A stretch of 64,000 nucleotides of DNA, from the NCBI RefSeq assembly GCF_042242105.1, contig NC_092020.1, positions 5,177,501 to 5,241,500 of the forward strand. The letters are read 5' to 3'. The position numbers were made by a program, and so were the translations under genes. Below the pieces are notes generated by a model, which saw only the letters and a program-made list of their open reading frames with translations, was not told where the DNA came from and did no database searches. The stretch is from Pempheris klunzingeri. Its lineage: Eukaryota; Chordata; Actinopteri; Acropomatiformes; Pempheridae. Below are positions 45,354 to 49,423 of the stretch, in pieces (the stretch's first letter is position 1; each line of letters starts with the position of its first letter).

Positions 45354-48300
45354 TTAGACTAGTCCAGTCTGTGTGTGCAGGTGTAAGGGGTACGGTTGGT
45401 AAAGCAGAGTTGATCCCCCCTGGGGTATGTAGTAGCTGCAGTAGCTGGGTTCTGCTAAATAGGGGGCACTGTGCTCGGCAAGGTATGGGGCAGGCTGGTA
45501 GAAGCATGTCACATGGTCTGTGTTAGGGATAATGTTCTGCTCTCCCAGAACTTTCAGTGCCAGCACTGTGATCATGTTCAGCGTCTGACGCCTCTCGTGT
45601 CCCATCAGACACACTGTGCTGTCGTCCACCACGCGACGCAGCGTCATCAGGTACTGGTACTTGCTTCTCTCCTCGCCGATAAAGTGGTTCTTCAAGTAGG
45701 ACAGGATCTTCCTCTGCTGCTCCTGCACGTCAGGGAAATCAATGAAAAAGCGCGAGCACATGTAGCGCTCCAGTGTCTTTATCTGAGTCTCGCTGGCCGG
45801 GCGGTAGTCCCTGACCAACAGGTTGCTGTATTTCAACAAGCCGCCGCCTCGAATCTCCTCAGGGTTCCTGGTAGCGATTAGGCGATAGCGCAGGTGGTCC
45901 ATGGCTGCCTCAAAGTCACCATACATGCTCTCTGCCAGGACCTCGACAGCGGGGACTGAGCCAGATGCCTGAGGACCGCTGCTCTGCTCAGGAATGTCTG
46001 TGGTTACCTCAGGGGCCTCTTTGTTCTCAGGCACAGAGCTGGATGCCTCATCAGCTTTTGGAGGGGCAGATTCCCCTGGGCCTCCACACTGAGAGTGAGG
46101 CAGCACATGGGAGGTGGAGCTCGGAATTGTGATTGGAAAGGAGACGGGCTCTGCAACCCGAGGCAATGATGAGATATGATCTTGTTCCGTTTTATCCTCC
46201 AACTGTAGGAGAGGAATTCCTGGCTGAGAGGAGGACTCTTTAATCTGCTCCTCGCTGTCTGTGTTCAGTATCAAAGGCTCCATGTCTGAAGATACCTGAG
46301 GTACAAGGTCCTCTGACTCCACCGGCGGAGTGAGGCAGAGGAGGGGAGGGCTGAGGCAGGGGGACGGGGGGCTAAGACAGAGTGGAGGAGGGCTGAGGCT
46401 GAGCATGGGAGGGGTGAGGTAAGGAGGTGAGCTGAGGCAGGATGAGGTAGGGCTGAAACTCAGGGGCGGAGAGCTGTAGCTGGTAGCAGGGCTGACGGTG
46501 CTCAGCATCGCAGATGAGAGGCAGTGAGGAGGAGGGGTCAGACACGGGGGAGGGCTGAGGCTGGGGGGCGAGGGAGTGAAGCAGGGAGGGGAAAGGCTGA
46601 GTATGGGAGGGGTGAGGCAGGAAACAGGAGGGGTGACACAGTGGGAGGAGGAGGGTGAGCTGAGTGTGGTCTCCTGTGGGCTGCCGTTTGGCTGATTCAA
46701 GTCGGTCTTTTTGGTCCGTGGTTCTCCGTTTTCATCTTCATCGCTGAGCTCAACTTCTGAGGTATGTACCGGTTCTGGGGTGTCTGAGCTGGACACGTCG
46801 GTGTGGGAAACTAACGGGTCCACTGAGTCAAGAGGCTCTGATTGTTTGGGTGCAGGGACAGTTTCTCTCAGGGAGGACTGGCTTTGCTCATCTGGAGCCA
46901 CATGTGTAGATGGTGTCTCATTCGGGCTCTGAACACTGGTCTCACACGACCCCTCTGTAAGGGGCTGAGAGGACGATGGCTCTTGAGGTAAAGCAGACAT
47001 GGGATCCGCAGCACAGGTGGAGATTATATCAGGGGCTGGATCAGGAGCTGGGGCCAGGTCGGGGTTTGAAGCTAGGTTAGTGGAAGGGTCGGGTTGAGGC
47101 CCAGGGTTTGTTTCAGTACAGACACTGGTTGCTGGGGTAGCTGTGGGTTCTGGACTGTGGGCGGCTGGATTTGGGTTAAAGGCTACCTCAGGGTCAGGGC
47201 TGGGGCAGGGATTTGGATCTGGACAGGACGCTGTGACCGGTTCGCTCTCAGAGACTGTACTGGGGTAAAGATTGGTTGGGACCTTCCTACACATCCTCCG
47301 GGGAGGTTTGGGAGAGGAGTGTTTGAGCACCACCATGTGAGACAGTCTATCTGAGGCCTTACAAGAGGGAGGAGAGGAGGTCTTTTTGTCAGAGACAAGG
47401 CTGGGTGGTGCAGCTAAAATATCCTGAGTATCTGGAGGGCTGACGGTAGGTGTCTTATCTGAGTTATCTGTGTGTAGTGTGCTGTGAATCTCCAGTGTAT
47501 CCTGTGTGTCAGTAAGCTGTGTGTTGTGAAGTGTAAGAGATATGGAAGAGGTGGAGCAGGAACAATCGATACCCTGTGTGTCTTCTACATTTCTTGCTTC
47601 TGATGCTAAAATCTCTTCTGCCACCTCACTTATTTCCGTGCCGTTTTTCCTTTCTGCTTGTCCCTCTGTCTCTGTTGCTACTTTTCTGTCGTCTGCGAAC
47701 TGTGTCTCTGTCTCTGCATGTGAGGATGTGCAGGAGTCTGGGGCAGACACGTGTGTTTCATCTTCCTCGTTGCTTCTCTGCTCCTCACTGAAACACTTGG
47801 GGGAGTCTGTGCTGTGCCGGTCTTCTGCCACGTTTGGAGACTCTGGCTGGGTTTCGTTTGAGTTTTCTGGCGGCTGGGGCTGCCCCGTCTGCTCTGTGAG
47901 TTCTGTCTGTTGGTCGGGGCATTTTGTGTGGTCGGACTGTTCTTTCTGGACAGAGAGCTCCGTGTGATGTGACTGAGCTGGTCGCTGGCCACCGTCAGGC
48001 TGGGTCTGCTCTGACTCTTCTACCGTCGCTGAGCCTTTGGTCTTCTCCGACAGCTCTGGTTCGTGTCTGAGTTCAGTCTGAGTTGGTGGTTCACCTTCAT
48101 CAGAGGTTTGTTCCCTCTCTGACTGGAGGCTTAGAGACGTCTGGTCACACAAGTCTGTCTCGTTCAAGTTTTCTCTGTGATCTGATGCTTCTTTCAGCTC
48201 TACGGGTGTTTTCTCTTTGTTGTCTTTTTCAACTTGGGAGCGCTTCGTCTGGTTTGAGTGTTCAGTTTGTTGTGAGAGTTCTGTTTTTTCAGTCACCTCA

Positions 48301-49423
48301 TCGCTCTGCTCTGTCTGGCTGATCTGAGCCCCCTCCTTGTCTTTAGTAGTGGACCTCTCTGTTTCTGGAGCGGCAGCCTGTTGAGAGGGACAGTCTTTGT
48401 TCTGATTCTCTGCGGGCTGGTCCTTTAGATCAACGGCATTATGTTTGTGCTGTGACTCCTGCTGCATGTAGGACTCCAGGAGACGGTCCAGAATGATCTG
48501 GAAGGAGTCGACGCTGAACTCAAACTGCCGCCTCAGAACGCTCACAAATTTGAGCTCCAGGTTTTTGCCGCTGTTGTTTGAGAGCGAGATGAGGCTCCAG
48601 CGGTCGTGCTCATTGAAGACCTTGACCATTTTCTGGACGTAGGCTTCCTTCATTGTAGCGCTGCTGATCCGCTCCCTGTTGACCCCGGCGGGCAGGCAGT
48701 CCAGCAAGCAGCCCAGCACGGATTCTTTGATCACCTGGGGGGAGGAAGAGTTCAACAACATGACAGCTACAACTAATGACTGCAATCTGAGTGCAATTTT
48801 GATTGTATCACTGAACTAATACTGTGATTCTCTTGTGGGTTATTTTCTGTATAACACACTTAAAGATATAAGAACCAGTACTATTGATTCAGCCTTATGT
48901 AAGATGTTAGAATTAAATTATGAGTGGGGTTATGATAACATCATTATCAATATATCACCACAAAAATGAACTCTAGAGACAGTAGAGATTCAGTGCCGGC
49001 TACCAGATAATACAGCAGAATGAATGCTGGTTAATGCAGGGGACTGAACCTTATTGCTAAACTCTGCATTGCATTGGGCTTTTTCCTATTCCTAAACTAA
49101 CAGTGCAGTAATCATACCTGGAACTCCTCCTGACTGGGCAACTCCACTCCAAAGATGATGTCCAGGTCCTTGCAGCTCGTTCCGTTGTCTCGGACGAGGA
49201 CGTGGCTGGCTGTGGAGCCGTTCAGACGGACATCTCGCACAGTGATTCCCTGCCTCTGCAGCCTGGCCCGCACTGCTATGATGATGTCCCGGGGACGCAG
49301 CTCCAGCGTGGGAAAGTTCCCGCGGCCGTGGATTGGAACCACCTCCGACAGAACCTGATGGAGGACCTCCACCTGCTCGGTGTTCAGGCTGTGGAACCGC
49401 TGGCTGGATTTGGTTTCAGACAT
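45354..49423 (-). CDS. tent5d: TENT5-family non-canonical poly(A) polymerase with a giant loop insertion (TENT5D locus)
   Basis: Two coding exons, 49423-49118 and 48734-45354, phase 0, give 1228 residues; family members are 390-440. TENT5 enzymes extend poly(A) tails of mRNAs for secreted and ER-targeted proteins. Seen: [20 protein letters not shown] start ([16 protein letters not shown], 29-44), nucleotidyltransferase GS at 69-70, catalytic pair D86/D88 in KDLDIIF, third acidic residue E162 in [27 protein letters not shown], and after the insert [56 protein letters not shown] and YQPAPYLAE. Residues 196-1031 (about nt 48452-45948) are an unbroken low-complexity insert where other members have about 15 residues: first Gln/Thr/Glu-rich, then a basic patch ([14 protein letters not shown]), then Pro-rich 'LSPPxCLTPP' units. 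Without it the protein is about 392 residues, TENT5D-sized. Paralogue choice rests on neighbours sh3bgrl and hmgn. Confidence 0.92.
45948..48452 (-). other. Coding insert of about 835 codons inside tent5
   Basis: Continuous with both flanking enzyme parts in one frame and lacking stops. Composition changes along it: nt 48450-47400 Gln/Thr/Glu/Ser-rich with loosely repeated 'TE.SxQTE' units; 47340-47280 a conserved-looking basic/proline patch; 47250-46680 Pro/Asp/Asn/Ser-rich ('PDPNPxPxPDP'); 46650-46330 about fifteen 'LSPP/CLTPP' units; 46320-45950 acidic Ser/Glu-rich. Predicted disordered. No clean GT donor and AG acceptor are placed so as to remove it whole; the nearest acceptor-like site is CTGGCAG at about 45943. 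Confidence 0.85.

Follow-up and report, generated by a model that had tools for sequence, protein, structure and literature searches.

A fish TENT5D-like gene with a long, putatively disordered insert inside its nucleotidyltransferase core

The stretch of DNA analysed here, called the window, is 64,000 nucleotides from the genome of the fish Pempheris klunzingeri (assembly GCF_042242105.1, contig NC_092020.1, positions 5,177,501 to 5,241,500; C9 in what follows). Its minus strand holds a gene of the TENT5 family in which 845 residues, disordered by composition, interrupt an otherwise complete nucleotidyltransferase (NTase) core. TENT5 enzymes lengthen the tails of secretory-pathway mRNAs, with targeting placed in the C-terminal part of the protein (PMC13291444). 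We see about an even chance that it represents one of two fish TENT5D co-orthologues, with a complete core that carries an acidic, Ser/Thr/Pro-rich disordered loop as a translated side-arm, additional to catalysis, that tunes partners, location or turnover. This reading is preferred because an insert sits at the same site in two of seven TENT5 loci that form one clade, the neighbouring genes resemble those of human Xq21.1, the insert edges align, their bulk composition is shared, both lack stops, the window insert has coding-like codon choice, and TUT1 offers a precedent.

Were this correct, a disordered loop of 845 residues within the core, with a counterpart in a second fish TENT5D, would add an internal regulatory layer to the enzyme. 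For the effects of such a loop on a nucleotidyltransferase, this one genome offers a clean comparison: copies with the insert, copies without it, and one copy with active-site losses. If the same is true in model fish, then fish TENT5D is no simple stand-in for the mammalian protein.

The TENT5 gene of the window

The gene has two coding exons on the minus strand, separated by a GT-AG intron whose borders (48735..49117, donor CAG/GTATGA) were determined by eye from the sequence. The coding part of exon 1 (49118..49423, with the ATG at 49423) has 102 codons. It holds the NGS of the G-S motif and the aspartates D86 and D88, and it matches positions 1-90 of the PF07984 profile (E 2.5e-33). Exon 2 (45354..48734, including the stop) encodes the remainder of the NTase domain, the insert, and the helical C-terminal half. 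The predicted spliced protein has 1228 residues and a mass of 134.4 kDa.

The initial annotation of this DNA had read a single exon as open through both halves of the enzyme. This is what is found: 45354..48815 is an open frame of 1153 codons, and the PF07984 profile hits exon 2 twice (E 1.1e-110), with the better match covering exon-2 residues 930-1058. The C-terminal half, from ESMYGDF to HTQTGLV (45357..45932), corresponds to profile positions 192-321. It is conserved in the alignment, with a tail unlike the WLPC-type tail of the five short-linker copies described below. Alignments with the structures of TENT5B and TENT5C flank the insert on both sides and overlap it by a few edge residues at most.

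The three carboxylates that had been named, D86, D88 and E162, are all in place, together with the G-S motif. E162, the third of them (codon GAG, 48555..48557), follows D88 by 74 residues, the same spacing as that from the catalytic Asp141 to Glu215 in FAM46A (PMC10075960). PF07984 scores above its cut-off in both exons, and the G-S, D-x-D and third carboxylate are present. What is missing is the short linker between contiguous NTase and helical domains, the 845-residue insert standing in its stead. Because membership rests on domain and residues, and it is the linker that differs, the window copy is a TENT5 variant. Judged by its sequence, then, the gene is a member of the family, and poly(A) polymerase activity is predicted for it.

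Two of seven TENT5 copies carry an insert

The insert comprises residues 192-1036 (45933..48467, minus strand; exon-2 residues 90-934) and starts 30 residues past E162. It had been described as about 835 residues at 45948-48452; that it is in frame holds, but it is slightly larger. Its removal leaves 383 residues, where about 392 had been given.

With the C-terminal half as query, the whole genome yielded nine candidates, seven of them TENT5 matches. At the insert site the linker has 17 residues in all five of the copies L003-L007, 380 in a copy on chromosome C14, and 845 in the window copy, so that long inserts are found at two of seven loci. The C14 copy (L002/L008, ~9027812-9030079, minus strand) has its 380 residues at the same place as the window copy. 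A second ruler, from LDx[ML]L to E[SC]xYGDF, starts three residues earlier and gives 20 for the linkers and 383 for the C14 insert; the window copy has no row in that count, its locus piece L001 ending within the insert. Absence from relatives had been proposed as a sign against the insert. In the one same-clade relative examined, this C14 copy, an insert is there.

A tree was made from the region after EAYVQK, linker and insert removed, using the seven loci and the TENT5A, B and C sequences of PDB (no TENT5D sequence being among them). In this tree, the two copies with an insert group together as a clade (support 100/99). It falls outside the A and B groups, next to the C pair. Here, L004 and L006 go with TENT5A (85/88), L005 and L007 with TENT5B (84/87), and L003 with TENT5C (81/86). 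The branches of the two insert copies are of equal length, 0.12. Over 207 codons, their cores differ by 1.5 synonymous (dS) and 0.10 nonsynonymous (dN) substitutions per site, with 42% of 65 fourfold sites identical; the dN/dS of ~0.07 that follows has a dS near saturation under it and, being pairwise, cannot separate the window branch from the C14 branch. The dS of the A pair is 0.9, and that of the B pair 1.26. The dN to the five other copies is 0.168-0.209 for the C14 copy and 0.186-0.206 for the window copy.

The active site of the C14 copy is altered. The D-x-D is kept, but glycine (codon GGG, not GAG) stands at the match to E162, and the G-S motif has become GA. All three elements (GS, DxD and E) are retained in six of six other TENT5 copies. 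With its low pairwise dN/dS, its ordinary dN to the other copies and the equal branch lengths, the loss suggests that the C14 copy is a retained protein, probably impaired in catalysis and possibly a pseudoenzyme. At that single active-site codon there may, of course, be an assembly error. A bolder reading would make a working pair of the two genes after the teleost duplication, the window copy as catalyst and the C14 copy as conserved pseudoenzyme (GS to GA, E to G), both with the large disordered arm as a main functional part. The pair would then regulate mRNA tailing linked to the endoplasmic reticulum (ER) through an active enzyme and a silent competitor or scaffold. This we consider unlikely.

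An assembly chimera, a retained intron or a pseudogene might be suspected from the unusual length alone. Yet the frame is uninterrupted and the active-site residues are in place, a sister copy on another chromosome has an insert at the same site, and the two cores show a low pairwise dN/dS (0.10 / 1.5). An artefact of this kind is very hard to credit.

Two scans of a set of genome contigs and two of a set of viral contigs gave 13, 99, 0 and 8 pattern matches, in that order, and no TENT5 relative was confirmed in them. As to the intron after Q102 (48735-49117), it is absent at that place from L002, L003, L005 and L007, which read straight through (L004 and L006 were left out); the C14 copy, L002, does so in a single frame, ..EDLQVIKEVV.. 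at the site.

Reading through the insert

The frame of the window insert contains no stop, against 24, 46, 36, 26 and 37 in the remaining five frames. In 500 first-order Markov simulations the mean was 27.2 stops and the minimum 11. The C14 insert likewise has none, against 18, 28, 13, 13 and 13 in its other frames and a simulated mean of 16.3 (minimum 7). The open frame, as a property of the sequence, is proof of reading-through but not of function, of course. Since the catalytic half follows further downstream in that exon, the frame has to be kept open by selection whether or not the insert does anything.

Synonymous codon choice was examined over 838 codons of the window insert. With a score of -89.8, it resembles TENT5 coding usage more than any of 500 random recodings does (null mean -189.1, standard deviation 20.7, maximum -116.2). 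For three non-coding stretches in the vicinity, of 259, 114 and 278 codons, the scores are -106.8, -36.5 and -91.2, which per codon is below either insert.

An alternative to translation of the whole would be the removal of the insert, or of most of it, as an optional intron, giving short and long isoforms. Exitrons are long in-frame stretches within coding exons, and in this the insert is like them; here, the splice-like sites are only weak. One donor, GAG/GTGACT, lies 171 nucleotides into the insert and scores 3.4 on a weight table, against 4.1 for the true donor of exon 1. Joined to an acceptor-like site 156 nucleotides before the insert end, it would remove 2208 nucleotides, or 736 codons, in frame. 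But an in-frame length is a one-in-three coincidence. From 60 nucleotides before to 112 nucleotides after the start of the window insert no donor scores above -6.5, and within 250 nucleotides of its end a single acceptor-like site passes the filter. In the C14 copy, the sites near the insert borders, among those listed, form no in-frame pair. Splicing out of the insert is thus considered improbable.

When 828 of the 845 insert residues were searched against the fish's own genome, the sole match among 40 scored candidates was the window itself; the C14 insert was not recovered. Origin of the insert from another gene of this genome was rejected on this result.

Composition, predicted disorder and motifs

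The window insert is 15.3% Ser, 13.8% Pro, 10.3% Glu and 9.6% Thr. The disorder claimed for it at the outset agrees with its charge-hydropathy value, -0.143, as against +0.149 for the core; the C14 insert, at -0.097, also falls on the disordered side. Relative to stop-free random sequence with the same dinucleotides, D+E are enriched in both inserts (z 8.5 in the window, 5.0 in C14) and K+R are depleted in both (z -5.5 and -3.6). Aromatic residues are clearly depleted in the window insert alone (z -3.3; C14 z -1.4). A single-sequence AlphaFold2 (AF2) model of exon 2 is poor everywhere, with a mean predicted local distance difference test score (pLDDT) of 34.5 and a predicted template modelling score (pTM) of 0.27. 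From exon-2 residue 101 to 930 it shows neither helix nor strand, and its helices 75-100 and 931-954 touch the insert edges. The model weakly backs disorder of the insert.

Within the insert (all on the minus strand), a first block, residues 192-531 (47448..48467), is acidic and rich in E, Q, T and S, with QTE/TELS-like motifs. Further on, residues 801-906 (46323..46640) form a block of 7-residue (S/T)PP repeats; for residues 792-911 the autocorrelation at lag 7 has a z of 6.5. SPP or TPP occurs 15 times in the window insert and 0 times in that of C14. A basic island at 47277..47333 has a look-alike in the C14 copy, SPKLQRKMSRKM, but the likeness is not significant (ungapped score 39; best scores of 30 shuffles 38-59).

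Both inserts were scanned with a set of motif patterns. Of these, only the generic PxxP, [ST]P and CK2-type ones were found in both. The patterns for PAM2, FFAT, nuclear localization signals (NLS), PP1, PP2B, 14-3-3, LC8, DSG, LxxLL and PPxY gave 0 matches in either. Single matches of the SH3, PP2A, SUMO and W..L types, each in one insert only, were set aside as chance-level.

Gene identity

The initial annotation had called the protein TENT5D-like, and neighbouring genes make TENT5D the most likely identity. A CHMP1B-like gene (53950..56022, plus strand; frames with matching exons, with a PDB CHMP1B match of E 4.7e-31 for 53950-54525) adjoins TENT5 in the window, and one adjoins it on C14 as well, both frames having C14 counterparts. 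A T-box gene (L022, C9:5246731-5250454) lies about 5 kb outside the window, beyond its right edge. On C14, a double-bromodomain gene (L013, two bromodomain exons, C14:9018874-9020124) lies ~8 kb from TENT5, on the side away from the CHMP1B-like gene. In human Xq21.1, ITM2A, TBX22, CHMP1B2P, TENT5D and BRWD3 are listed consecutively (PMC12936413), a list assumed here to follow map order.

The order T-box/CHMP1B-like/TENT5 on C9 and CHMP1B-like/TENT5/bromodomain on C14 is thus set against one human region. Each fish chromosome has one side of the human neighbourhood, and the middle is on both, which is what is expected of a duplicated TENT5D block. The T-box gene is a matching candidate for TBX22, and the bromodomain gene for BRWD3. 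Among the matches listed, the nearest T-box on C14 is ~0.86 Mb from TENT5, and the nearest bromodomain on C9 ~0.47 Mb, so that only one of the two genes is a near neighbour of each TENT5 copy. When 120 kb of C14 were compared with window frames of at least 25 residues (E 1e-4), matches fell in the TENT5 and CHMP1B-like genes only.

On gene order, therefore, the window and C14 copies are most likely duplicated TENT5D co-orthologues. By its dS the duplication is old. From this, and because A, B and D are each present twice, we infer that it is that of the teleost whole genome. Orthologues of FAM46D have been dated to Euteleostomi (PMC3652184), and stickleback Fam46d is expressed in brain (PMC4569571).

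Side-arm or tolerated expansion

Whether the two inserts share an origin can be asked at their edges. For the first 35, 50 and 70 residues, 12, 4 and 1 of 2000 shuffles aligned as well, as did 17 of 1121, 0 of 1075 and 0 of 1015 other window pairs. For the last 35, 50 and 70 residues, the counts were 6, 23 and 82 of 2000 shuffles and 0 of 1123, 0 of 1077 and 14 of 1017 pairs. On both controls, five of these six comparisons are at or below 1.6%; that of the last 70 residues fails, at 4.1% of shuffles. Aligned globally over their whole length, the inserts outscore block shuffles (0 to 4 of 300 as good). The shared site and the sister relation of the two copies suggest a single origin of both inserts. 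The insertion probably predates the duplication, with most of the length since turned over or added.

The side-arm reading has its mechanism at hand. A linker near the border of the NTase and helical domains would have become a disordered loop of 845 residues. Since both ends of the loop lie where a short linker already joins the folded halves, the core would fold and polyadenylate as usual. In the simplest mechanism, a flexible arm tethered at two points close to each other would not disturb the core, and it might alter partner binding, location or turnover while taking no part in catalysis. In human TENT5D, truncation constructs put the domain border at 209/210 (PMC13291444). With an ordinary 17-residue linker the window's ESMYGDF would fall at 209 (an estimate made without a TENT5D alignment), which would put the insert just before that border. 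Targeting of TENT5D to the ER and FNDC3 is located in the C-terminal part (PMC13291444). As this part is conserved here, the arm more likely modifies such targeting than replaces it.

Several findings weigh against this reading, and with them stands a close rival that explains nearly as much: an exposed linker that grew by repeat slippage and drift, selection keeping nothing but the open frame and solubility, with no specific role for the loop. Under it, constraint on the frame accounts for the missing stops, and the repeats of seven residues are in one copy only. The inserts differ in length more than twofold. At third codon positions, their GC content is 0.53 (window) and 0.48 (C14), below the 0.75 of either core. 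Codon choice in the C14 insert, over 372 codons, is within its null (-70.8; null mean -99.6, standard deviation 14.8, maximum -55.5). Of the edge tests, those of the first 35 residues (on pairs) and of the last 70 (on both controls) are the weaker. Local alignment of the inserts is within its null as well, with 133 of 500 shuffles as good, and the interiors, once 60-residue edges are removed, no longer score above shuffles in global alignment (99, 191 and 135 of 300 as good, at three gap settings). The homology signal therefore sits in the edges, since the global significance vanishes without them, and homology over the whole insert was rejected.

A phosphorylation platform had been proposed, but the window insert has 32 SP/TP sites and that of C14 only 3, which leaves a shared platform of the proline-directed type unsupported. 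Comparisons here are confined, moreover, to the TENT5 copies of one fish genome, and the role of the arm is one that we infer. Against tolerated expansion, on the other side, stand the acidic, K/R-poor make-up of both inserts, which goes beyond what random sequence without stops yields at equal dinucleotide content, and the fact that an insert was kept in both copies despite a core dS of ~1.5. We regard tolerated expansion as a serious contender of somewhat less than even chance; the side-arm reading is suggested, and unproven.

Comparison with known systems

The nearest relatives are, of course, vertebrate TENT5A-D, and TENT5D above all, with which the window copy shares PF07984, the GS..DxD..E signature and the human TENT5D neighbourhood. 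The five other fish copies, and the PDB sequences of TENT5A, B and C, have a short linker where the window copy has its long insert. All vertebrate members are said to have the same architecture (PMC5606997), which we take to mean NTase and helical domains in direct succession with a short linker; the fish TENT5D pair, as predicted from the genome, contradicts this statement. The disorder described for TENT5 is in terminal tails (PMC13291444), whereas the window copy has it inside the protein, in a stretch roughly two times as long as the core.

A parallel in kind comes from another family. TUT1 (Star-PAP/TENT1), a terminal nucleotidyltransferase, has in the palm of its catalytic domain a predicted disordered, proline-rich insertion that is dispensable for catalysis in vitro, its deletion keeping kcat/Km at 96% (PMC5467268). 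That insertion, 235-304, has 70 residues and comes after the second catalytic Asp (218) and before the third (381) (PMC5467268). The window insert is placed differently. It has 845 residues rather than 70, and begins at 192, 30 residues past the third carboxylate, not between the second and the third acidic residue.

The initial annotation knew of no described vertebrate TENT5 of this form. None is among the matches listed from open-licence PMC full texts, as judged by titles and the starts of abstracts. Database entries for fish TENT5D may already show the long form, uncommented.

Two further features lie to the left of the TENT5 gene, both on the minus strand. A TASL-like frame at 18766-19458 matches PF15133 at 25.1 bits, under the cut-off of 27. 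Beyond it, at 10787-11829, are exons of a Na+/H+ exchanger (PF00999).

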